A stretch of DNA of 59,968 nt, from contig NZ_JOEI01000034.1 of NCBI RefSeq assembly GCF_000718095.1, positions 1-59,968 on the forward strand, given 5' to 3'. The notes below the pieces were generated by a model, which saw only the letters and a list, made by a program, of their open reading frames with translations, was not told the DNA's origin and searched no databases. Positions 1 through 17,615 of this stretch are shown here, piece after piece. Positions within the stretch are counted from its first letter, which is position 1; every line of letters begins with the position of its first letter. The translations under genes were made by a program, and so were the position numbers. The DNA comes from Streptomyces scopuliridis RB72 (GTDB lineage Bacteria; Actinomycetota; Actinomycetes; Streptomycetales; Streptomycetaceae).

Positions 1-2607
1 CGACCGCCACCGCACCACATCACCCGTGCGATACATCCGCCCACCCGCGACACCACCGTACGGATCAGCGACAAACCGCTCCCCCGTCAACCCCGGACGC
101 CCCAAATACCCACGGGCCAGGCCCTCTCCCGCGATATACAGCTCACCGGTCACGCCCACCGGCACCGGACGCAACCCTGAATCCAGCACGTAGGCACGGG
201 TGTTGGACACCGGACGGCCGATCGGCGGCGTCCTCCCGTCGTCGTCCAGGCCGACGTCCGGGTCGCCGTCGGCGTCGCCGTACCAGGCCGTCGCGTAGAC
301 GGTGGCCTCCGTCGGGCCATAGATGTTGGCGATACGGCAGCCCGGCAGGGCGGCGCGGATGTCGGCGACCGCGTGTGCCGACAGTGCCTCGCCCGCCAGG
401 ACCACGGTCTCCGCGGACGCCTTCACCCCGCCGTGCGCCAGGACTTGCGCGATCGCCGAAGGCACCGCGCTGATCAGGCTGCCCGACCAGCCGTCGCCGG
501 CCCGCTCGGTGAGCGCGAGCAGATCGCGGACCACCTCGATGCTGCCGCCGCAGCACAACGGTCCGAACATCTCGAAGACGGAGACATCGAAGTTGAGCGA
601 GGTGGACGCCAGGACGCGTCGCAACTGTCGCGGCCCGATGGCGTCGGCCGCCCACGAGGCGAGGTCGACCGCGCTCGCCTGGGACACCACAACTCCCTTG
701 GGCCTGCCGGTGGAACCCGAGGTGTAGATCACGTACGCGGGGTGCGGGAGCCGTAGCGAGGTGGTGCGGTCGGCGTCGGAGGGGTTGGTGGCCGGCTGTC
801 CGGCGAGCAGTCCGGCGGTCCGCGGATCGTCGAGGAGCAGACATGTCTTGCCGGACTCGGTCACCGTGGTCCCCGCCACCGTGAGCACGAGCGAGGGGCG
901 GGCGTCGTCGAGCATGAACCCGGTCCGCTCGGCCGGGTAAGCGGGATCGATGGGAAGGTAGGCGGCCCCGGATTTGAGGACCGCGAGCAGCGCCACGATC
1001 ATCGCGTCGGAGCGGGGTACCGAGAGCGCGACGACGGTCTCGGGCCCCGCGCCTCGTTCGATCAGCAGATGTGCGAGCCGGTTGGCGCGGGCGTTCAGCT
1101 CGGCGTAGGACAGCTCACGCCCCTCGAAGACCACCGCTGTGGATTTCGGGGTACGGGCGACCTGCACCTCGAACAGCTCGGGCAGGGTGACGGACGGTAC
1201 GGGCCGTTCGGTGGCGTTCCACTCCACCAGCACCCGCTCGCGCTCCGCGGGCCGGAGGAGTTCCAGGCCGCCGACCGGCTCGTCGAGTCCGGCTCGGACC
1301 ATGCCGCCGAGGAGATCGAGGAAACGCCGCTGGTGCGCCGCGATCTCTTCGGAGCCATAGAGTTCCGGGTTCGCGTCCAGGTCGATCTTCAGGCCGCTCC
1401 CCTGGCTCCCCTGGTTCAGGCCGCTCCCCTGGCCCTGCCCGGAGCCCGCGCGGCCGTCCACGACGAGCGACAGATCGTCGACCGGGCCGCCACCGAGGTT
1501 GTGCACGGTGGTGCGGTGGCCGGCGAACCGCAGGTCGTAGTCGACCATGACGATATTGATGTGCGGGCCGGCCAAACGGTGTTCGTCGCCGGAGAGTTCG
1601 AGGTCCCGCCGCAGGTCCTCGAAGCGGTAGCGCTGGTGCTTCAGCGCGAGGTGCAGTTCCTTCGACGCCTGCCGGACGAGTTCCCGGACGGTGGTGCCCG
1701 GGTGTACTTCCAGCCGGAACGGCAGCACGTTCGACATCATGCCGGGGATGGTGCGGGTCGCCATGGCTCCGCGGGCGACGACGGGGAGGCCGAGAACGAC
1801 ATCGCGGTTGCCCGTCATCCTGTGCATGTACGCGGCGAGCGCGGCCACGGCGACAGCGGGCCAGCTGACGTCCGCCTCGCGTGCCGTAGCGCGCAGCCCG
1901 TCCAGTACCCCTTCGTCCAGAAAGGCGGTCCGCCGCTCCAGATACCGGGGCAGGCTCGGCTGCCGGTCGGCGAGGCTGCTGGGAGCGGGCAGATCGGCGA
2001 AGCGCGCCGTCCAGTACGCGCGGTCGCGCACGAACCGCTCGGAGGACCGGTAGGCGGCCTCGTCCTCGATCAGCTCCCGCAGGGATCCGAACGTCGGCTC
2101 CGGGCAGGGGTGTCCCGCCGCCAGAGCCGTGTAGAGCCCGGCCACGCGCCCGCCGATGAGGGAGAGACCGAGGCCGTCCATGACGATGTGGTGGTAGCGC
2201 TGGTACCAGAACCAGTGGTCGTCCGCCACCTTGAACAGCGCGAACGCGAACAACGGGCCGCTCGTCGGATCGACCGGCCGGCGCGCCTCGGCCCGCATCC
2301 ACTCCTCGGCGCTCGCCCGCGGATCGTCCTCGTCACTGACGTCGAAGAGGTCCATGTCCCAGTCGTCGTGCTCCTCGACGACCTGGGACGCGCTGCCGTC
2401 CTCCTCGACCACCCGGATCCGCAGCGTCTCGGCCTCGGCGACGATGCGTCGCAGCACGCTCTCGAACAGCGCCGGGTCGATCTCACCGTGGATCTCGATG
2501 TATTCGGCGATGTTAAAGATGGGATTCGTCGGATCGAGGCGCTGGGAAAGCCAGATACCGGACTGCGCGGCCGTAAGGGGCAGACGAGCAATCTGATAAC
2601 CGGTCAT
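1..2607 (-). CDS. Non-ribosomal peptide synthetase, condensation plus adenylation domain (partial, runs off the left end)
   Basis: Non-ribosomal peptide synthetase. I translated the frame directly from ATG at 2607; it stays open for 869 codons to base 1, so only the N-terminal part is visible. Residues about 8-440 are a condensation domain with the active-site motif HHIVMDG near residue 140; its opening ([14 protein letters not shown]) resembles the EntF-type condensation domain. Residues about 460-869 are an adenylation domain with [11 protein letters not shown] (A3, near 628), [11 protein letters not shown] (A5, near 761) and YRTGD (A7, near 860). By hand alignment to PheA the specificity positions read D-V-F-S-V-A-I-V-Y, which I cannot assign to a substrate. 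Starting with a condensation domain means it accepts an acyl or peptidyl group from another protein. The DrrAB-like exporter lies upstream on the same strand. Family is certain; the product is unknown. Confidence 0.95.
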
Positions 2608-2937
2608 GGTCCATCCGTTCTCGATCGGGCAATTGCACGGTCAATGAGGAATCGAATACGGCCGGGCAGGCCAGAAAGCCACCGGCACAACGAACTCGCG
2701 AGCCATTACATCTGTCACGGGTTAACAGCGGAGAAACCGACAGGCTCTCCCAGATATCAATCCGCGATATCAATCCGCGCACCGATAGAGGCGGGATGAT
2801 GGGGCGGGATGATGGGCGCAGGGCTGTCCCGTAATCCCCGGTGGATTCACCAAAGCGGTATGCGGCCGCCGCCGACGGGAACGCGCCGGGAATTACCGGA
2901 CGGCCCTACGGCCGGTCCCGCGGGAACTCAGCTCGCC
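2608..2937. other. Intergenic region upstream of the NRPS with two 13-bp tandem duplications
   Basis: No convincing gene. This 330-bp gap separates the exporter permease from the NRPS on the same strand and probably holds the NRPS promoter. It contains two adjacent direct duplications, both with a 13-bp period: GATATCAATCCGC at 2753-2765 and 2766-2778, and GGCGGGATGATGG at 2790-2802 and 2803-2815. Confidence 0.6.
2753..2815. repeat. Two consecutive 13-bp tandem duplications
   Basis: GATATCAATCCGC is repeated exactly at 2753 and 2766, and GGCGGGATGATGG exactly at 2790 and 2803. Two unrelated units with the same 13-bp period within 63 bp, upstream of a biosynthetic gene, could be slippage products or direct-repeat regulator sites. 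Confidence 0.85.
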
Positions 2938-3729
2938 TCAGCGAGCGGCGGCACGGCGGTACGCGCCGACTGCCGCGGGTACGACGGCGGCCAGCAGAAG
3001 GCCGCAGAGCACGAGGGACACCGGCACCGGATACTGGACGGGGAACGCCCCTTTGCCGGTGCCCGTCGTCGTGTTGCCGAACAACTCGCGACAGGCGGCC
3101 ACCACGGCGCTGACGGGATTCCACTCGCACAGCCATCGCAGCCAGCCCGGCAGACCGTCCAGCGGGATGAAGGCGTTCGACAGGAACGTCAGCGGCATGA
3201 CCAGCATGAACGCGATGGAGTTGACCGCCTCCGCGCTGCGTGCCAGCAGGCCGATGAGCGCGCCGAGCCAGGCCATGGTGTAGCCGAGCAGCAGGAGCAG
3301 CCCGAAACCGGCGAGGGCCTTGAGGAACCCCTCGTGCACCCGCCATCCCATGAGGTATCCGACGATGGCCATCGTGACGCAGGCGATGACCGCCAGCGTC
3401 AGATCGGAGAGGGTGCGCGCGATCAACACGGAGGACCGTGACATCGGCAGCGAACGGAACCGGTCGACCACACCGTTGCTGAGGTCGCCGGCGACGCCGA
3501 GAGCGGTGTTTCCCACGTTCGTGAGCATCATCTGGGTGAAGATGCCCGCCATCAGGTACGAGCGGTAGTCGCTGCCCGGCACGGAGATCGCGCTGCCGAA
3601 CAGGACGCCGAAGACCACCACGTACGCGACGGGCATCAAGGTCACGCTGAGCAGCTTCTCCGGGATGCGCACCAGGTGCTTCATGTGCCGGCCGACCAGT
3701 GCGGACACGTCACTGACAAGTTCCACCAT
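2938..3729 (-). CDS. ABC-2 type exporter permease (DrrB-like)
   Basis: Membrane subunit of a drug/natural-product ABC exporter. The 263-residue protein has about six hydrophobic segments (for example LMPVAYVVVFGVLFG near residue 32 and GLLLLLGYTMAWLGALIG further on) and the ABC-2 signature region between them, GVVDRFRSLPMSRSSVLIAR, which matches daunorubicin-resistance permeases (DrrB). It starts 12 bp after the ATPase gene on the same strand, so the two form an operon and presumably one transporter. Its position beside the NRPS suggests export of the NRPS product, or self-protection. The family is clear; the substrate is inferred only from position. Confidence 0.92.
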   Translation of the reverse strand: MVELVSDVSALVGRHMKHLVRIPEKLLSVTLMPVAYVVVFGVLFGSAISVPGSDYRSYLMAGIFTQMMLTNVGNTALGVAGDLSNGVVDRFRSLPMSRSSVLIARTLSDLTLAVIACVTMAIVGYLMGWRVHEGFLKALAGFGLLLLLGYTMAWLGALIGLLARSAEAVNSIAFMLVMPLTFLSNAFIPLDGLPGWLRWLCEWNPVSAVVAACRELFGNTTTGTGKGAFPVQYPVPVSLVLCGLLLAAVVPAAVGAYRRAAAR

Positions 3730-3741
3730 GAGGTACTCGCC

Positions 3742-4692
3742 CTACCTTTCCCTGCTGGTCGTGCCGCCGGTCAGGGCGAGGAACACACCGTCGAGCGAGG
3801 GCCGCCGGACGGCGAACCCGACGGTCCTGGCGCCCGCGGCGTCCAGCGCGGCGGCGGCCTCGGAGACCGTTTTCAGCCCGTCCCGCAGCGAGACGGAGAC
3901 CGTGCGGCTGTCCTGCGCGACGACGGGTTCGGCGGCGGCGGTCTCCCGCAGCGCCGTCACGGTCGCGGGGATGTCGCTGTCGTCCGCCAAGGACACTTCG
4001 AGCCGCTCCCCGCCGACCTTGGCCTTCAGCTCGTCCGAGGTTCCGTCGGCGATGACCCGGCCTCCGTCGATGACCGCGATGCGGTCGGCGAGCTGGTCGG
4101 CCTCTTCCAGGTACTGGGTGGTCATGAGTACGGTCACCCCGCCCGCCAGCTGCTCGCGGATCATGTCCCACAGAGTGAGCCTGCTGGTCAGGTCGAGGCC
4201 GGTGGTCGGCTCGTCGAGGAACAGCACCTTGGGCTCCGCGATGAGGCTCGCGGCCAGGTCGAGCCTGCGTCGCATGCCTCCGGAGTACGTCTTGACCTGG
4301 CGTTCCGCGGCGTGCGCGAGATCGAGCCGGTCGAGCAGTTCATCGGCACGCGCCTTCGCCGCGCGGCGGCCGAGGCGGTACAGCGTGCCGATCAGCCGAA
4401 GATTCTCCCGCCCGGTGAGCCGCTCGTCGAGGGCCGCGTACTGGCCGGTGAGGCCGATACTGCGGCGCACCTCGCGCGGCTGATCACGTACGTCGTACCC
4501 GGCCACACTCGCCCGGCCCTCGTCCGGTTCGAGCAGCGTGGCGAGCACGCGCACGGTCGTCGTCTTGCCCGCCCCATTGGGGCCCAGGATCCCCAGTAGC
4601 GTTCCGGTGGGAACGGAAAGGTCCACACCGCACAGCGCTTCGTGGCCCCCGTAACGCTTACGAAGCCCTACTGCCTCGATAGCGATTTCCAT
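3742..4692 (-). CDS. ABC exporter ATP-binding protein (DrrA-like)
   Basis: Cytoplasmic ATPase that drives the adjacent permease. The 316-residue protein has Walker A GPNGAGKTT near residue 37, signature YSGGMRRRLDLA, Walker B VLFLDEPTTGLD and a switch-region MTTQYLEEADQLAD, all typical of the daunorubicin-resistance (DrrA) subfamily. It has the C-terminal extension of that family, and length is normal. It is the first gene of the leftward operon ATPase-permease-(gap)-NRPS and is divergent from the thioesterase at 5106, sharing a 413-bp promoter region with it. Confidence 0.94.
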   Translation of the reverse strand: MEIAIEAVGLRKRYGGHEALCGVDLSVPTGTLLGILGPNGAGKTTTVRVLATLLEPDEGRASVAGYDVRDQPREVRRSIGLTGQYAALDERLTGRENLRLIGTLYRLGRRAAKARADELLDRLDLAHAAERQVKTYSGGMRRRLDLAASLIAEPKVLFLDEPTTGLDLTSRLTLWDMIREQLAGGVTVLMTTQYLEEADQLADRIAVIDGGRVIADGTSDELKAKVGGERLEVSLADDSDIPATVTALRETAAAEPVVAQDSRTVSVSLRDGLKTVSEAAAALDAAGARTVGFAVRRPSLDGVFLALTGGTTSRER

Positions 4693-5105
4693 GAATGCAC
4701 CTCACGTAGAGCTTGCGCAAAATTCCGCGGCCTCCATTCGCTCAATCGCCCTGGGGGTGGCAAGTGACTTCCGGGAAGGCAGCGCCACTAAAGCACCCCG
4801 CCCACCTCGCTGACAAGCACCTGCCAAACCTCCGTGTGACATACACCGATAATTGAACCGTGAACAATGGGGCGCTTCCACCTGGACGAGAGAGACATTT
4901 ACCCCGCGCCACTCGCCCCTCCGCCCGGTTGGTGCGGCGAGCGCCATTTGCCGTTCCGACAATGCTCCAAAAGTGCCCCCGAGGAGAACAGCAGGAGAAT
5001 ATTGCGGAACTGCTTTTTCGAGGCGTCGCCGACAACGCTGTCAACAAGCCATCCTCGGTGCGTCAGGCCCGGAGGGGCGGACGGACCATCACACTGGGGG
5101 CGCGG
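4693..5105. promoter_or_regulatory. Divergent promoter region between the exporter and the thioesterase
   Basis: No supported gene in this 413-bp gap; short open frames here lack ribosome sites and coding character. It must hold the promoters for the leftward exporter/NRPS genes and the rightward thioesterase. I see no clear palindrome or known operator. Confidence 0.5.
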
Positions 5106-5924
5106 ATGAGCGACACGAGCGAGCGGATCAGGCATGCCGGGGAGGACGGGCACGCGAGGCACCTGAGCGGCCCGGACCCCACCCCCTCCCTGGCGTGGTT
5201 CCGGCGCTTCACTCCTGTGTCCCGCCCACGTACGCGCCTGGTGTGCTTCCCGTACGCCGGCGGCGCCGCCAGCGCCTTCCGCACCTGGCCACGCCGGCTG
5301 CCGGAGACGGTCGAACTGCTGGCCGTGCAGTACCCGGGACGCCAGGACCGGCTCCAGGACCCGTGCGTCGACGACATGGACACCCTCGTGGAACCGATCG
5401 TCGAGGCACTGACGCCCTGGCTCGACCGGCCACTGGCCCTGTTCGGGCACAGCATGGGCGCCTCGGTGGCCTTCGAGGTGGCCATACGGCTCAAGGACCG
5501 GCATGGCGTGGATCCGGCCGCGCTGTTCGTCTCCGGCCGGGGAGCGCCCGGTCTCACGCGCGAATCCGCCCTCCACGAGCAGGGCGACGCGGCGCTGATC
5601 GCGGACGTGCTACGACTGGACGCGGCGGCGGCACCCGTACTGCGCGATCCGGATCTGCGGGAACTCGTCATGGGATCGATCCGCGCGGACTACCGGCTGA
5701 GCGAGACCTACCGCCCGCACCCCGACGCGTCGACCGGAGCCCCCATCACCGCTTATGTGGGGCGGGACGACCCCGACATCGCCCCGGACGACATCCGTGC
5801 CTGGGCCCGGCACACCCGCGCCGGATACAGCGAGAGGATCTTCCCGGGAAACCACTTCTACCTCGTTCCCCACGCGGCGGAGCTGATCCAGGACGTGGCG
5901 GCGAAGCTCCACACCACGGCGTAA
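5106..5924 (+). CDS. Type II thioesterase
   Basis: Editing thioesterase that removes wrongly loaded or stalled acyl groups from NRPS/PKS carrier proteins in the cytoplasm. The alpha/beta hydrolase shows the nucleophile elbow FGHSMGAS (Ser near residue 116), a likely acid in GRDDPD (near 221) and a histidine in GNHFYL (near 251). I chose ATG 5106 (272 residues), preceded by a G-rich ribosome site and giving the usual family length, over the longer open frame that begins at 4860. It lies divergently from the exporter and NRPS, the usual companions of this family. Confidence 0.93.
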   Translation: MSDTSERIRHAGEDGHARHLSGPDPTPSLAWFRRFTPVSRPRTRLVCFPYAGGAASAFRTWPRRLPETVELLAVQYPGRQDRLQDPCVDDMDTLVEPIVEALTPWLDRPLALFGHSMGASVAFEVAIRLKDRHGVDPAALFVSGRGAPGLTRESALHEQGDAALIADVLRLDAAAAPVLRDPDLRELVMGSIRADYRLSETYRPHPDASTGAPITAYVGRDDPDIAPDDIRAWARHTRAGYSERIFPGNHFYLVPHAAELIQDVAAKLHTTA

Positions 5925-11114: not shown

Positions 11115-11384
11115 GCACGGACATAGAGTCAGTTCCTCGGCGAATCGGCGGGGCACATCATGGAGATCACCGTCCAGTGGGATTTCGGTTCGCTGTTGGG
11201 CAGGCGCTTGCGGAATGCCTTCTTCCCGGCCGGGGTGACGGCGGTGGCGTGATGTTCGACTTGTTGAATCGACCCCGGACGCACGATCTGCAGCCGTAGC
11301 GTCCAGGGTGCCGGTCGGAGTCAGGGTGCCCACCGCACACTTCTGCCGCTTCGAACACCAGGTCAGGACGCGCGTGATCACCAT
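11115..11384. other. Gene-poor stretch before the IS110 relic
   Basis: A short frame from ATG 11161 (MEITVQWDFGSLLGRRLRNA...) stops after about 30 codons and matches nothing I know. The stretch probably includes the disrupted left part of the IS110 element that follows. Confidence 0.4.
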
Positions 11385-11769
11385 CGGAATCGAACGTCGA
11401 TTCGCCGTCGAAGGCGTCGGCGGCCTCGGCCGCACACTCGCCCAGCAGCTGGCCGCGGCCCGCGAGGACGTCGTCGATGTGCCGTCCACGCTGTCGGCCA
11501 GGGCCCGGCTCCTGTCGAGAACGAAGCCCAGATGCGCGATGCCCTCGCCGCCTCACGGACATCGCTGCCAGGGCTCGGGGCGGTGCTCGCCGCCAAGGGC
11601 CTCGGACACATCGGCGACGTCACCCGATTCCCCACCGAGCACCACTTCGCCGGCTACACCGGCAGCGCAACCTGCTGAGGCCCGCAGGGCCCTCAAGCGG
11701 CGTCTCTCGAACGTTGTCTACCGGATCATGAAACGAGACCAGCGAAACCAACTCGCAGCAGCTGCTTGA
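11385..11769 (+). pseudogene. IS110 family transposase relic
   Basis: Pieces of an IS110-type (DEDD) transposase in two plus-strand frames. The first, from about 11385, reads RFAVEGVGGLGRTLAQQLAA then VVDVPSTLSARARLL, an IS110 N-terminal domain segment. After a frame change, about 11535-11680 reads LPGLGAVLAAKGLGHIGDVT then RFPTEHHFAGYTGSA, the C-terminal transposase_20 domain, ending in a stop. The last piece reads ALKRRLSNVVYRIMKRDQ to a stop at 11769, the usual C-terminus. Large internal parts, including most catalytic acids, are missing, so it is dead. Confidence 0.82.
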
Positions 11770-12254
11770 CACAGAGGCGCTAATCAGCGGTCTGCCAGTG
11801 CCTCGGGGACCGGTGACACCACCCCCAGGCCATACCTTCAACAGGGGGGAGCAGTCATGCCGGTCCCGGAGGCCGGGAACCTCATTGCGGGACCACGAAA
11901 AAGGTCATGGGGCAATCTCACCTTCGGCAGGGAATCCGGCCCTATGGATCTTCGGCCTCTGGACCGATCGATTTCCGGAGCTGACCGCAGTCAGCGTCTC
12001 CGAGACGCCCAAGACGTGAGCCGAGTACCGGCCGGCGTGATGGCGACCGGCGGTTGACGTCCTGGGGGCAGTCTGGCTGGCCCTCCGTGACAGATCCGCC
12101 ACGAACAGCGTCCCGCAGATGCGAAATCCCACCCGGTCAACCATCGCACGCGGAGAGCCTGCCCGCCGCCCGCCGCACTCGGGAGGGAAGCCCCACCGGT
12201 CACCGCCAGGACCACCGCCACAATGCGATCGATCCCGGGAGCACCGAATATGGG
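11770..12254. other. Leader region of the 12.3-16.3 kb operon
   Basis: Probably contains the promoter of the operon that starts at 12329. One short frame, 11857-12057 (described separately), has a good ribosome site; otherwise I see nothing firm. Confidence 0.45.
11857..12057 (+). CDS. Doubtful small ORF, 66 residues
   Basis: The frame MPVPEAGNLIAGPRKRSWGN... has GGGGGAG five bases before its ATG, which is the only reason to list it. Composition is unremarkable, it has no signal peptide or cysteine pattern, and I recognise no family. It lies upstream of the P-loop/HExxH/ABC operon and could be a leader peptide or a chance frame. Confidence 0.25.
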   Translation: MPVPEAGNLIAGPRKRSWGNLTFGRESGPMDLRPLDRSISGADRSQRLRDAQDVSRVPAGVMATGG

Positions 12255-12329
12255 ATGAGCGAATCGAATGGACGACACCCGTTCGGGCGCCGGCACGGGC
12301 CCGATCCGCAACGGATGAGGGATCTGTGA
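12255..12329 (+). CDS. Candidate 24-residue micro-ORF overlapping the next gene
   Basis: A short frame, MSESNGRHPFGRRHGPDPQR followed by MRDL and a stop. Its TGA at 12327-12329 overlaps the ATG of the P-loop gene (TGATG), so translation could be coupled. The peptide is rich in Arg, His, Gly and Pro. The ribosome site is weak: GGGAG lies about 13 bases upstream. A peptide this small next to a peptidase-like protein and an ABC exporter could be a precursor or a leader, but chance is a real alternative. Confidence 0.3.
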   Translation: MSESNGRHPFGRRHGPDPQRMRDL

Positions 12330-13387
12330 TGAAAGATTTCGCTGGGGCCAAGTGGGGCTATGTGACGCGCAGAATCAACGACCGGGACGCGACCGTGCCC
12401 GGTGGGTCGGTTCGCGAACCGCAGCTCGGGGATCTTGTGGTTGCCACCGTGGCCCACCTGGGCGAGCTTGACCATCTGGAGGATGTCCATGGTCGGCGCG
12501 TCCGTCTCTACTTGGGCGACATTGTGGTGGGTGCATACGGCAACCGGTATGCCACGGACTTCTACGAGGGTTACCTGCCGACCGGGCCCAATGTTCATCT
12601 GCTGACGGCGGGCGGCCTTGTGGGAACGGTGGCCTCGGCGCATACGCGACGGCTGCCACCGACCGAGTTGAAGGTGATCGGCACGCTGAACGACCGGTCC
12701 GGGATGCCACTGTCGCTGGAACACTATGCGCGGACGCCGTCGCCGCACACGGCGCCGGAGTGGGGCACTCTGGTCGTGCTCGGCTCGTCGATGAACGCGG
12801 GCAAGACCACGACGGCGTCGGCCATGGTGAGCGGCTGGACGCGAGCCGGACTGGCTGCCGGTGCGGGCAAGGTCACCGGTTCCGGCAGCGGCAAGGATCG
12901 CTGGACGTACATCGACGCGGGCGCCAGCACCGTGGCCGAATTCCTCGACTTCGGCATGTCTTCCACGTTCGGCTATCCGGTCGAGCGGCTGCGGACCACG
13001 ATGATCGCCATCCGCGATGCCCTGGTCGACGACGGTGCGGACGCAGTCGTCCTGGAGATCGCCGACGGGCTGCTGCAGTCCGAGACACGGGCGCTTGCCG
13101 AGTGCCTGCCCGGATTCGCCCACGGTGTCGTACTGGCGGCGGCCAATGCGCTGGACGCGGTGGCCGGGGTGACGATCCTGCAGGGACTGGGGGTCCCGGT
13201 CCGCATGGTGAGTGGCCTGGTCACCGCCAGCCCCCTTGCCTCCCAGGAAGCACACGCGGCCACGGGACTGCCGGTCCTGTCCCCGCCACAGCTGGCGAAC
13301 GGCGCGGCCGTGGACCTGGTGCGCGCACCGGTCCGGCAGACCGTCGCCACGGCGGGACCCTTCGCCGACACCGCTGTCCGGGGATGA
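12329..13387 (+). CDS. P-loop NTPase, DUF1611/DgcN-like (tentative)
   Basis: Predicted cytoplasmic nucleotide-binding protein, 352 residues from ATG 12329 with GAGGGA seven bases upstream; the open frame runs back to 12119 without a better start. An N-terminal domain of about 140 residues (with VRLYLGDIVVGAYGNRYA) precedes a P-loop GSSMNAGKTTT at residues 152-162. Following motifs include GKVTGSGSGKDRWTYIDAGA and DAVVLEIADGLLQSET, the latter placed like a Walker B. The layout recalls the C-terminal P-loop domain of DUF1611 proteins, some of which (DgcN) N-acylate D-amino acids; I recognise this from memory only. First gene of a three-gene operon with a HExxH protein and an exporter. Confidence 0.7.
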   Translation: MKDFAGAKWGYVTRRINDRDATVPGGSVREPQLGDLVVATVAHLGELDHLEDVHGRRVRLYLGDIVVGAYGNRYATDFYEGYLPTGPNVHLLTAGGLVGTVASAHTRRLPPTELKVIGTLNDRSGMPLSLEHYARTPSPHTAPEWGTLVVLGSSMNAGKTTTASAMVSGWTRAGLAAGAGKVTGSGSGKDRWTYIDAGASTVAEFLDFGMSSTFGYPVERLRTTMIAIRDALVDDGADAVVLEIADGLLQSETRALAECLPGFAHGVVLAAANALDAVAGVTILQGLGVPVRMVSGLVTASPLASQEAHAATGLPVLSPPQLANGAAVDLVRAPVRQTVATAGPFADTAVRG

Positions 13388-13393
13388 TGCCCC

Positions 13394-14485
13394 GTGATCC
13401 CGGCGATCGTCTACATACCTGACGGACGTCCCTGGCCCGGGCAGTTGCGTGAAGTCGCCCTGGACGTCCTTGAGCTGCGGCCGGCCGAAGTGGTGCTGCC
13501 CGAGGCCACGGTCCGCGACGAGCGCGGCGGGCAGCTGTTCAACGGCTCCACGTTGATGTTCGACCCCGCGGCCGGTGGCGGCCCCCTGGCTGACGCCGTC
13601 GCAGACCGGCAGGCCCGAGCATTCGGCGTGACCAACACGGCCTTCCACGTCCAGCGTGCTCTGCGGTTCGCTTCAGCCCTGCTCGGCCACCCTCTCCCTC
13701 GCCTGCTGGTCAGAATCGGGATGCACGACCAGCCCCGCCGCTGGCGCGGAGGGCATTACCGGCTTCCCAGGCCGTCACTCACGGACGAGCCCGCCACTCT
13801 CAGCTGTGCGGGCGAGGTCCATCTGGGGGGCGGCGCCGGATTCGTCCCGGCACCGGATGGCAGCCGGTATTTCCACGCCCCCGCCCACAACGCCGCGATC
13901 ATCTGTCACGAGGTCGGCCATCATCTGTGCCGGCACACCGCGGACTTCCGGCTCAACCGGCTGCGTCCCCCGGAGCAGCAGACCAACCGGAAGATCGCCC
14001 TGGACGAGGGCACAGCAGATGTCCTCACGGCCATCCTGCTGGGCACCTCTGACATCTATGGCTGGCACCGCGGGACCATCGCCGAGTGGGACCCGCGGCG
14101 CCGCAAACTGCAGCCCCGGTGGACAATGGCGCACTTCGTGGGCGGGCGGGACCAGGACCCGCACGCCGACGGCACCGTGTGGGCATCGGCATGCTGGTCC
14201 GCTCGTGAGCGGGTCATCGCCACGGGTGCCGACGCGGCACGCTTCGATGCGGCGCTGCTGCGCGGCATGGAGTCGGCCGGAGCCGATGCCGCCCGGCTGA
14301 CCAAGGACGCCCTGAGCCAACGCCGCCAGTTCTCCCGGCTGCTGTCCGCGATCACGCGTGCCGACCCCGGACTCGCGCCGGTGGTATTGACCGCCATGGC
14401 CGAGCACGGCATACGCCCCGGCGCGAGCAACGCAGCTCTCGAAGGCGCTGCCCGCGCGGACCTGACCGGGGAGGTGGGCCGATGA
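13394..14485 (+). CDS. Putative zinc metallopeptidase (HExxH ... DEGTAD)
   Basis: Unassigned protein of 363 residues starting at GTG 13394, 6 bp after the P-loop gene. Residues 172-177 read HEVGHH, a HExxH zinc-peptidase motif, and about 28 residues later comes DEGTADVL (Glu 205, Asp 209). That pairing is how gluzincins such as thermolysin bind zinc (two His plus a downstream Glu in ExxxD). No signal peptide or membrane helix is visible, so it should act in the cytoplasm. It lies between a P-loop protein and an ABC exporter (4-bp overlap with the latter), suggesting it trims or modifies what the exporter carries. No known family recognised; peptidase activity is inferred from the motif. Confidence 0.7.
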   Translation: MIPAIVYIPDGRPWPGQLREVALDVLELRPAEVVLPEATVRDERGGQLFNGSTLMFDPAAGGGPLADAVADRQARAFGVTNTAFHVQRALRFASALLGHPLPRLLVRIGMHDQPRRWRGGHYRLPRPSLTDEPATLSCAGEVHLGGGAGFVPAPDGSRYFHAPAHNAAIICHEVGHHLCRHTADFRLNRLRPPEQQTNRKIALDEGTADVLTAILLGTSDIYGWHRGTIAEWDPRRRKLQPRWTMAHFVGGRDQDPHADGTVWASACWSARERVIATGADAARFDAALLRGMESAGADAARLTKDALSQRRQFSRLLSAITRADPGLAPVVLTAMAEHGIRPGASNAALEGAARADLTGEVGR

Positions 14486-16263
14486 GGGCCAGCCGAGCCG
14501 ATGTGGGAATGATGCGATACCTATGGCGATTCCGTTCCTACGGCCGCCCGCACCTGGGCACGCTCGTGCTCGGCGTGGGACTGCGCGTCGGAGAACTGAT
14601 CGCCGACCTGGCGGCACCCTGGCCGCTGGCGCTGGTCATCGACAACGTACTCAAGGGCCGGACCAGCGGCCCACTGGCCTGGCTCACGGGCATCGTGGGC
14701 TCGTCCCCGCTGGCCATGCTCAGCGTAGCCGCCGCCGCACTGCTGCTGATCACTCTCGCCTCGGGGACGTTCGACTACCTCGGTGACCGTGTGATGAACA
14801 GCGCCGGAGAGCGGATCACCGCGGAGATCCGCACGGACGTCTTCGCCCACATGCAACGGCTCCCCATGAGCTACCACGACCGGCAAGCCGTCGGGGAACT
14901 GACCAGCCGCATCGCGATCGACACCAGCCGGATCCAGGACGCTCTGGTCGACCTGTTCTCCACACTTCTGCCCGGACTGCTGGCCCTCGCGGGCTACGCC
15001 ACCGTCATCCTCTCCGTTGACTGGCGCCTGGGGTTGATCGCGATCGGGGGCGCCCCGCTGATATTCCTCACGGCCGCCCGCTACACCCGGTTGACCCGCC
15101 AGACGGAACGGCGGCAGCGCGCCGCCGAAGGACACCTCGCCACCTTCGTCACCGAATCCCTTCAAGGCATCCGCACCATCCACGCCTTCGGCCGCCAGGA
15201 CCTGCACGACGCACATTTCGCCACCAGCAACAGCACCACCCTCAACGCCGGCCTGCGCAGCGTCGAACTGCGGGCCCGATTCACTCCACTGCTCGAAGCC
15301 GCCGCCGCGGTGGCCACCGCGGCACTGCTGTGGGCGGGCGGCCTCGGTGTCGTGAACCACTGGTGGAGCGTCGGGCTGCTGGTCGTGGTGACCAGCTACC
15401 TCAAGGACATGATCAAGCCCATGCGATCGATGTCCCGCCTTTCGATCACCTTCCCCCAGGGCGCGGCCTCCGCGGAACGCGTCGCCGCCATCCTCGACCA
15501 GCCACCCCCGCCCCCGACACCACACCGGCGCCTGCCCGACCGCGCCACCGGCCGAATCGACCTGCACGACATCACCCTCGACTACGGCCGCGGCCCCGTC
15601 CTGAACCACTTCGACCTCACCGTCCACCCCGGCGAACACCTCGCGCTGCTCGGACCCAACGGCTCCGGCAAATCCACCGTGCTCTCCCTCATCGCCGGGC
15701 TCTACGCGCCCACCCGCGGCCGCCTGCTCCTCGACGGACTCCCCCTCGCCGACATCCCCGCCATCTGGCTGCACCGCCAGATCGCAGTCGTGCTGCAGGA
15801 CACGTTCCTGTTCTCCGGCACCATCGCCGACAACATCCGCTACGCCCGACCCGACGCCGGCCCGCACGAGGTCGCCCGGGCGGCGGAGGCAGCCCTGGTC
15901 ACCGAGTTCACCGAACGCCTGCCCGATGGCCTGGGCACCCGGCTCGCCGACCGAGGCGCCGGACTGTCCGGCGGCCAGCGCCAACGCGTCGGCATCGCCC
16001 GCGCCCTGCTTGCCGACGCCCCCGTTGTGCTGCTCGACGAACCCACCACGGGACTGGACAACGCCGCCGAAGAACTCGTCGTCCGCGCGCTCGGCCACCT
16101 GGTCGAGAGCCGAACAGCGGTCATGACCACCCACCGGCCGGCCCTCACCCGCCTCGCCACCCGCACCATCCATCTCGACGACGGCACCCCGCGCACGGGC
16201 GGCAGTCCGGCCTCGAAGTCGACCCGGCGGGAGGCTGCGCGGGCGACCCGGCGGGCCGCCTGA
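14482..16263 (+). CDS. ABC exporter, fused membrane and ATPase domains
   Basis: A half-type exporter, 593 residues, acting as a homodimer in the cell membrane. The N-terminal ~320 residues are a six-helix type I exporter domain with the family hallmarks (GELTSRIAIDTSRIQDALVD; ESLQGIRTIHAFGRQ). The C-terminal ATPase has Walker A GPNGSGKST near 390, Q-loop VVLQDTFLFSGTIADNIRYA, signature LSGGQRQRVGIARAL near 495 and Walker B VVLLDEPTTGLD. No N-terminal C39 peptidase domain is present. The start overlaps the metallopeptidase stop (ATGA), so the three genes are co-translated. Its cargo is unknown; antibiotic, peptide and lipid exporters all look like this. Confidence 0.95.
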   Translation: MRASRADVGMMRYLWRFRSYGRPHLGTLVLGVGLRVGELIADLAAPWPLALVIDNVLKGRTSGPLAWLTGIVGSSPLAMLSVAAAALLLITLASGTFDYLGDRVMNSAGERITAEIRTDVFAHMQRLPMSYHDRQAVGELTSRIAIDTSRIQDALVDLFSTLLPGLLALAGYATVILSVDWRLGLIAIGGAPLIFLTAARYTRLTRQTERRQRAAEGHLATFVTESLQGIRTIHAFGRQDLHDAHFATSNSTTLNAGLRSVELRARFTPLLEAAAAVATAALLWAGGLGVVNHWWSVGLLVVVTSYLKDMIKPMRSMSRLSITFPQGAASAERVAAILDQPPPPPTPHRRLPDRATGRIDLHDITLDYGRGPVLNHFDLTVHPGEHLALLGPNGSGKSTVLSLIAGLYAPTRGRLLLDGLPLADIPAIWLHRQIAVVLQDTFLFSGTIADNIRYARPDAGPHEVARAAEAALVTEFTERLPDGLGTRLADRGAGLSGGQRQRVGIARALLADAPVVLLDEPTTGLDNAAEELVVRALGHLVESRTAVMTTHRPALTRLATRTIHLDDGTPRTGGSPASKSTRREAARATRRAA

Positions 16264-16367
16264 CGGGTCCAGTCCCAGCCATGACTCAACAGACGAGTCC
16301 TTTTTCTGCCCTGTTCCCCGAAGGCACCGCCAACCAGGCCGCGAATACCGTTGGCGGCGGGGCTTGG

Positions 16368-17165
16368 TCAGCCGCTTTCCCGGTAGTTCATGAACCAGTG
16401 CGTATCGAAATAGCCGGCCATCGTGTACGGGTGGCGCGGGTCGACGAGGATGCGGCAGACGAACTCCGCGGCTTGGCAGTCGAAGAGGAGGTCCTCGCCG
16501 TCGAAGGACCGGACCGCAACAGGCCAACGGTCGGGGTCGTCCCCGTCGGCCCTCCAGCAGTACAGGTCCTCGTGCTCAGTGCCCGCCCAGATGAGCAGAC
16601 CGTCCTCCCTGAGATGCGTCCACGGCTCCTGGTTCAGGTCCAGGAATCCGTCGAAGGCGCCCTCGCCGAACGTCTCGACCATGCGCTTGTAGTCGCTCGG
16701 CAGCGCGGTGCCCAGGCGCGACTCCACCTCCGCCCAGACCATGTCCGGCCGCTGGGCGGGCTGTGTCCAGCCGGTGATCCCTCTGAGCCGCTCCATCCAG
16801 TCGACGTCCTCGCCCGGAGCGACCGCCAAGGGTTCCGGCACCTCCCTGCGAGCAACCACCAGCACCGGCCGCTCGACCTCTTCGGCGTCCCGCGCCGTAC
16901 CTGCGCCGACCCACTGGTCCCCGTACGCCCACGCCCGAATCGTCACGGCCCGGTCTTCGAAGGGGACGAGGAGAGCCGCGCCCCTGGACCCGTCGACCGT
17001 CGGATCGGTGAAGCCGTCCAGGACGAGAGTGCGTGGGGCGCCGTACCTGCTGTCGAGCAGGTCGGTCAGGTCCTGCCGGTCCAGGTCGCTGGGCAGATAC
17101 ATGTAGCCGTCCGCCGGGCCGAGTTGGGCCAGCAGGTCGTTGATGGTCCCCTGCGTGAGCTTCAT
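16368..17165 (-). CDS. SMI1/KNR4 (SUKH) family protein
   Basis: A 265-residue protein whose C-terminal half carries the SUKH pattern: an N-terminal WAEVESRLGTALPSDYKRMV helix pair, then ETFGEGAFDGFLDL, then the strands LREDGLLIWAGTEHEDLYCW and a closing region with LVDPRHPY. SUKH proteins often act as immunity proteins against polymorphic toxins, but in Streptomyces many stand alone. The N-terminal ~130 residues are separate and not recognised. ATG 17165 fits better than the upstream start at 17195. No toxin gene is adjacent. It converges on the ABC exporter operon. Confidence 0.85.
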   Translation of the reverse strand: MKLTQGTINDLLAQLGPADGYMYLPSDLDRQDLTDLLDSRYGAPRTLVLDGFTDPTVDGSRGAALLVPFEDRAVTIRAWAYGDQWVGAGTARDAEEVERPVLVVARREVPEPLAVAPGEDVDWMERLRGITGWTQPAQRPDMVWAEVESRLGTALPSDYKRMVETFGEGAFDGFLDLNQEPWTHLREDGLLIWAGTEHEDLYCWRADGDDPDRWPVAVRSFDGEDLLFDCQAAEFVCRILVDPRHPYTMAGYFDTHWFMNYRESG

Positions 17166-17615
17166 GGCGAACAGTGAAGCGCACCGCACTGACAATGGAC
17201 GTGCCGCCAGACGTATCTGACGTCGATTCGCGATGCGGGTCCAAGACCACTGTCAACCGCCCCCCGCCGCCCTCGCACCGACCACGCAGCAGAGTGCCGA
17301 GCAACAGGTCTCACCACATCAACAACTGTCCCTTCTCATCCATACCCGGGTGGCGACGTCCACGTGTACGCCGACATCCAGACGCTCGTCCTCGCCATAT
17401 CCGCTTCACCGGCCATGCCAAACGGTAGGTTGAGGAACCAGACACTGTCCGTGAGCCCACCGCGGCGCGATGGCGGCAACAGCCGGAAGTATCCCAACTG
17501 GCGCACGACGCAACTCCGCCCCCAGGCGGCGGAAGTAGTGCGGGAGGGTCCCGCCAGGAGCGCCCCGAGCCGACTATCGTTCCGTCTTAAACATGGCGTT
17601 GAGATCGGGGGGATC
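17166..17615. promoter_or_regulatory. Divergent intergenic region
   Basis: 450 bases between the SMI1 gene and the zinc-ribbon gene. The frame of the latter stays open back to 17364 but has no ribosome site or coding character there. No repeats or palindromes stand out; it should hold both promoters. Confidence 0.4.

Follow-up and report, generated by a model that had tools for sequence, protein, structure and literature searches.

The window analysed here, meaning the whole 59,968-nucleotide stretch of Streptomyces scopuliridis RB72 (contig NZ_JOEI01000034.1, positions 1-59,968; genome label G000), carries three closely packed genes that we designate A (P-loop protein), B (HExxH protein) and C (ATP-binding cassette (ABC) exporter); L-numbers denote the loci with which they were compared. 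A and B are separated by 6 bp and B and C overlap by 4 bp, so the coordinates bear out the tight packing described in a first-pass annotation made from the sequence. The features of the locus are listed below.

12190..16276, no strand: A-B-C cassette, apparent limits (92-94.5% identity with L002-L005, the fetched flanks being unrelated)
12255..12329, + strand: micro-open reading frame (micro-ORF) of 24 codons, not conserved, judged a non-gene and outside the system
12329..13387, + strand: gene A, P-loop NTPase (SIMIBI/dethiobiotin synthetase (DTBS)/DUF1611-like), 352 amino acids (aa), with a beta-rich N-terminal domain
12782..12808, + strand: Walker A motif of gene A, G152..G158-K159-T160, invariant in 34 of 34 aligned rows
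13394..14485, + strand: gene B, predicted cytosolic zinc peptidase with a predicted fungalysin/thermolysin fold, 363 aa
13907..14164, + strand: putative active-site residues of B, HEVGH (H172-H176), DEGTAD (E205, D209) and H257 of HADGTVW
14482..16263, + strand: gene C, half-size type I ABC exporter (transmembrane domain followed by nucleotide-binding domain), 593 aa, without a C39 domain

A single scan of a one-genome-per-species collection yielded 37 loci encoding B, which together with the window make 38 places (L040 (G028), similar to L002, was excluded from the counts). These loci lie mostly in Actinomycetota, the nearest named ones being from Streptomyces. B is rare: with the window's own genome counted each time, it was present in 2 of 100 relatives and in 1 of 394 genomes of the class, and a wider profile detected it in 6 of 396 genomes of the phylum, four of them at 30 bits or less. 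A adjoins B in 32 of the 36 evaluable loci (31 by alignment plus L036, whose contig starts inside A; the contigs of L032 and L038 start at B and were not evaluable). Likewise, C adjoins B in 28 of 36 (27 by alignment plus L037, where a 603-aa ABC exporter comes next; L011 and L026 were not evaluable, as their contigs end). The co-localisation on which the annotation had made its system idea depend was thus found elsewhere. The genes usually overlap by no more than 4 bp or are separated by at most a few tens of bases; outliers are some A-B overlaps of 82-97 bp and two B-C gaps of 161-173 bp. Across 23 actinomycete loci the divergences of the genes correlate strongly (r = 0.93 for A-B, 0.95 for B-C and 0.95 for A-C), and none of 1000 permutations reached the observed r for either A-B or B-C. 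Further A-B-C trios occur in L126 (a Chloroflexi-labelled metagenome-assembled genome (MAG), the same as that of L036) and in L132, from another relative. The shared order and tight spacing are far beyond chance, and A-B-C is a genuine conserved operon. A cassette with variable flanks, as described below, could also consist of unrelated neighbours joined only by co-transfer, but this explanation is disfavoured and highly improbable: the order is constant, the genes overlap or nearly touch throughout, and A, B and C have diverged in step in the 23 actinomycete loci. Moreover, the arrangement recurs as A-B-C in L126 and as A-(B-CapA)-ABC in L131 and in the Hyphomicrobiales-labelled MAG of L037. 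Phylum labels of MAGs may be binning errors.

In B, residues H172, E173, H176 and E205 are invariant in all 43 aligned sequences, and the motif aligns with that of structure 4k90; the histidines and the glutamate proposed earlier as a zinc site are present. The annotation had described a signal-less protein of no known family. No hydrophobic N-terminus was found in 119 of the 120 listed homologues (judged by hydropathy only), and the combination of signal and propeptide that marks secretion was not found in B. The lack of a family held as far as Pfam and NCBIfam are concerned, but the predicted fold is that of thermolysin/fungalysin, the match beginning at residue 2. The window protein does not reach the Peptidase_M36 cut-off of Pfam; many of the listed relatives in a sister group described below carry this domain (PF02128). 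Searched alone against known structures, B gave a sole match at chance level (2vhh, E 0.51); profile A2 recovered 4k90 (E 0.022), TOR2 (0.33) and a de novo protein (2), and profile A3 two helical de novo proteins, 4k90 (E 0.48) and TOR2 (0.83). We consider B to be a divergent gluzincin and a predicted intracellular zinc peptidase, of which 288 B-type matches were found at E ≤ 0.001. It has in common with the M36/M4 gluzincins the HExxH motif, the downstream Glu as putative zinc ligand and the predicted fold. It differs from them in being apparently cytosolic, without signal peptide or propeptide region, in lacking a Pfam match, and in sharing its operon with genes for an NTPase and an exporter. 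The M36 peptidases known so far are secreted. Protealysin, of the M4 family, has its own propeptide and is not known to belong to a P-loop/ABC operon, and differs from B thereby. Its intracellular location is a feature that protealysin-like M4 peptidases would have in common with B, protealysin being termed an intracellular metalloprotease in an excerpt of PMC9505478. In L015 an amidohydrolase gene directly follows B.

The P-loop protein A had been placed loosely with DUF1611/DgcN. The domain test detected the P-loop fold of the DUF1611 class, but the Pfam score for DUF1611 (PF07755) was 9.2 bits against a cut-off of 25, and a Pfam match to MobB was also below threshold. Residues 1-135 are barely covered by matches. 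By sequence A alone matched no known structure at E ≤ 1, whereas profile A4 matched BioD (E 0.033), with a viral protease, FtsY and MobB similar or weaker. We regard A as a divergent DUF1611/BioD-class protein, set apart from DUF1611, DgcN and BioD by its unmatched N-terminal domain and its low DUF1611 score. Its invariant residues K181, D190, D196 and E243 look catalytic from the alignment, and we take them to correspond to positions of BioD, the alignment with which covers only the region from the P-loop to K181. A also adjoins ABC exporters at places without B. Its partners are time and again exporters and peptidases, the latter either B or M20, and some branches add possible ligases. This repeated company suggests a cytosolic substrate that is amino-acid- or peptide-like.

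HypB and MobB are among the fold or weak profile relatives of A, and the proteins encoded beside it (B, M20 peptidase and CapA) belong to metallohydrolase types. A might then be a HypB/MobB-like P-loop metallochaperone supplying metal to B, leaving B and C alone to act on the substrate. We regard this as improbable. The alignment of A contains no invariant Cys or His, which weakens such a role, while the invariant residues named above look catalytic and A also stands beside exporters where B is missing.

Two further settings of A-type proteins were observed. In L078-L086 a separate conserved operon combines a flavin-reductase-like gene (8 of 9 loci), an M20 peptidase (9 of 9) and an A-type P-loop protein. 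In L073, L074 and L076 an A-type protein, an ABC exporter, a small protein (163-204 aa where called) and an HTTM-type membrane protein stand in a row; the small protein and the HTTM-type protein also occur beside B in L012, L015, L017 and L025.

C was annotated as a type I ABC exporter without its own C39 peptidase, and Pfam agrees: ABC_membrane (163 bits) and ABC_tran (114 bits) were detected in one chain, together with weaker generic ATPase models and no C39. In NCBIfam (with models such as MsbA, CydC/D, bacteriocin and type I secretion system), the best 25 of 193 families were all below the cut-off. C is an ordinary exporter type. The PADLOC anti-phage models gave no family for A or for B; C matched 23 of them through its ATPase domain (best mad3, E 8.7e-29).

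When the window was compared with L002-L005, only the stretch from about 12190 to 16276 was common, at 92-94.5% identity, and the flanks diverged abruptly, the comparison being limited by the short right flank of L002 and left flank of L004. The edges vary slightly, one match starting at 12193 and the right edges lying at 16269-16284. A pattern scan revealed a truncated 3' fragment, which we take to be tRNA-Pro-like, just downstream of C in L003 and L004. In L035 the trio lies between two 3' fragments that are presumably tRNA-Met-like (identical over 33 bp and 78% alike over 107 nt, at a spacing of 5449) and are held in 107-nt direct repeats flanking the trio (L035:717-6272). The pattern scan recognised no tRNA-like fragment beside the trio in the other loci scanned, and ARAGORN detected no whole tRNA beside it in 32 loci and the window (L011, L026, L032, L037 and L038 were left out); its only tRNAs were in L015, L031 and L036, away from the trio, with none in L003, L004 or L035. 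In the tree of B, the Streptomyces clade of the window groups with Pseudonocardia and not with other Streptomyces copies (support 95/89), and three copies from S. humicola fall in three places. Tree placement, cassette limits and tRNA-like fragments together support horizontal transfer, and from these sequence comparisons A-B-C looks like a transferable cassette. Plasmid-borne spread was rejected, as B had no match in PLSDB. A decayed transposase-like stretch, presumably IS110-like, lies just upstream of the cassette at about 11300-11770.

The 24-codon micro-ORF reported to overlap the start of A exists at 12255-12329, and its TGA shares 1 base with the ATG of A. Its reading frame, however, is open from position 12054 onwards, so that its ATG lies inside a longer GC-rich frame. 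Among five close relatives (L002-L006) it is kept in L005 alone, where it is one codon longer than in the window; the conservation that the annotation had required is thus lacking. In L002 and L003 only the last four codons (in L003 plus one) follow a GTG, in L004 a frame opens from a GTG at equal distance but indels give a different peptide, and nothing resembling the micro-ORF lies upstream of A in L006. A precursor of a ribosomally synthesised and post-translationally modified peptide (RiPP) upstream of A was rejected on this ground. The 927 short ORFs within 1.2 kb of the trio gave 109 matches in 35 locus pairs (30 listed), compared with 10 matches in 3 pairs for 629 more distant control ORFs. 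Near relatives make up most of the listed pairs. Several cross-clade matches turned out to be antisense at the start of A, inside the 60 bp of A included in the region, and a Pseudonocardia signal to be leader conservation at the DNA level matching two frames. No short-ORF family common to distant loci was seen in the 30 listed of 35 pairs, although very short or unlinked precursors could escape such a comparison. In L002-L005 and the window a strongly conserved leader precedes A at about 12215-12250 (CCACAATGCGRTCGATC...GAGCAC), and it is perhaps a promoter or operator.

These results bear on a RiPP or signal-peptide pathway, in which A would modify a small precursor before B cuts it and C exports it. 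The pairing of a peptidase with an exporter without C39, the upstream micro-ORF and the HTTM-type membrane protein that some loci encode close to A or B would suit it, but the micro-ORF is not conserved and the 927 ORFs provided no family across distant loci in the listed pairs; we hold this pathway to be unlikely. Graspetide and other RiPP clusters resemble the trio in having a peptidase and an ABC exporter, and an ATP-grasp-like gene in one sub-clade, but they differ in that no conserved precursor was found here and C lacks C39. Nothing found marks the trio as a RiPP cluster, in keeping with the annotation, which could name no matching class.

A search with the peptidase domain of the L037 relative uncovered a sister group of 397 proteins at E ≤ 0.001, fused and stand-alone together. 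Of the 120 listed, 66 exceed 700 aa, 52 are below 500 aa and 2 lie between; among the matches listed, precomputed domains assign PGA_cap (CapA) to the long ones and M36 to many of the long and the short. Named fusions of M36-like peptidase and CapA come from Hyphomicrobiales, Bradyrhizobium and Chloroflexota. Their peptidase domain is 34-38% identical to B of the window and, as in the trio, an A homologue lies directly upstream and an ABC exporter nearby (L037, L131); they differ in the CapA domain, which the window type lacks. The order is A, B-CapA, ABC in L037, and A, B-CapA, a 368-aa protein, ABC in L131 (from a genome chosen for its relatedness to the L036 MAG), while L038 has B, ABC and CapA with the A side cut off. 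In L109, A, an ABC protein and HlyD are divergent from two ATP-grasp genes, both above the Pfam cut-off, and a B-CapA fusion in which HExxH has been lost (L109:1148-3484, - strand). Among the matches listed in 150 genomes drawn around that of L037, a peptidase-CapA fusion of nearly full length was found only in G898 besides the genome of L037, the remaining matches covering the CapA part only. Three CapA genes of the window's genome, two scoring above the cut-off and the third below it, lie on contigs other than that of the window; they were judged generic and rejected as partners.

Genes near the trio were predicted with a home-made codon-usage gene caller. A Pseudonocardia/Modestobacter sub-clade lacks C, and an ATP-grasp-like gene (483-507 aa) comes after B in L008, L009, L010 and L013; its start is present at the contig end of L011 and remnants in L012. 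We identified it from matches below threshold to GSP_synth and glutathione synthetase. L018 combines A-B-C with a more distant relative of 454 aa. TauD-type genes occur in L008 and L009 and DUF6875-type genes in L008, L009, L010 and L013 (the Pfam comparison covered L009); according to an excerpt of PMC13307353, DUF6875 proteins contain heme and oxidise tryptophan. These neighbours, the L109 gene set and the CapA fusions of the sister group would agree with production, the trio being the finishing and export part for an amino-acid conjugate or small peptide made independently of ribosomes: ligases in trans or next door would join it, A would activate a carboxylate or carbamate, B would trim and C would export. 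However, no fourth gene recurring across clades was seen at the compared loci and the cassette appears to move alone, and we consider production possible but rather doubtful.

Our tentative preference, held at somewhat less than even confidence, is for A-B-C as a transferable module that modifies, cleaves and exports cytosolic amino-acid- or peptide-like compounds, likely for protection. As an ATP-dependent enzyme of the DTBS/DUF1611 class, A would modify or activate the compound; the intracellular fungalysin-like zinc peptidase B would cleave it, and the half-size exporter C would pump the product out. The basis consists of co-inheritance, predicted folds, conserved zinc-site and P-loop residues, the absence of a signal peptide and the apparent cassette limits; what we infer is catalytic activity, the sequence of the three steps, the kind of substrate and protection over production. 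Protection or self-protection appears most likely because the trio stands mostly alone and moves without a constant biosynthetic partner, which fits protection slightly better than production. The modified-peptide or export-coupled logic proposed by the annotation is partly supported and is retained here as a modify-cleave-export module, no precursor peptide having been found in the listed comparisons. Several observations weigh against this explanation. A is absent beside B in L012, L013, L015 and L025 (4 of 36), and C is not adjacent in 8 of 36 (L008, L009, L010, L012, L013, L015, L020 and L025, the last with a copy of C about 2 kb upstream). B of the window matched no Pfam family at E ≤ 1 and no NCBIfam model. 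The loss of HExxH in the L109 relative implies that peptidase activity is not always needed. Finally, the CapA fusions of the sister group point to synthesis rather than protection, as do the ATP-grasp-type genes of L109 and the weakly similar ones of one sub-clade.

The combination of modifier, peptidase and exporter is reminiscent of microcin C immunity, a likeness of logic only: MccC, MccE and MccF are a major facilitator superfamily transporter, a GCN5-related N-acetyltransferase and a serine peptidase, all three families differing from those of the trio. Searches of open-licence PMC, which misses most subscription papers, brought up no description of A-B-C. It is conceivable, with considerable doubt, that the trio represents a previously undescribed and widespread ribosome-independent peptide chemistry, in which a DTBS-like NTPase, an intracellular fungalysin-type peptidase (often CapA-fused) and an exporter, on a cassette moving between phyla, make or destroy an amide-linked metabolite. 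With 288 B-type and 397 sister-group matches, about half of the listed members of the latter being CapA-fused, the intracellular M36-like branch tied to an NTPase and an exporter forms a large set that is still unexplored. If protective, it would be a transferable type of resistance against peptide-like antibiotics in soil actinomycetes; if productive, a new natural-product logic. Either way, the compact three-gene unit is open to test.

The remaining neighbours are restricted to single clades or loci. Sigma factor, zinc-finger and cupredoxin-type genes accompany the trio in L027, L028, L034 and partly L029, and a P450 lies near it in L019 and L020. The start of the window (1-5924) is the edge of a nonribosomal peptide synthetase (NRPS)-type cluster that ends about 6 kb before the trio and contains the following genes.

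1-2607, - strand: condensation-domain-like protein cut by the contig start (identified by eye)
2938-3729, - strand: likely permease
3742-4692, - strand: DrrA-like ABC ATPase
5106-5924, + strand: thioesterase

These NRPS-like genes were left out of the system because they are not shared by L002-L005 within the compared flanks. Directly downstream of the trio (16368-17195, - strand), and outside the stretch common to L002-L005, the window encodes a SUKH/SMI1-KNR4-like protein (sub-threshold match); such proteins are often immunity proteins. In L031 an M55 D-aminopeptidase gene (L031:7834-8673) lies about 0.2 kb upstream of the trio.
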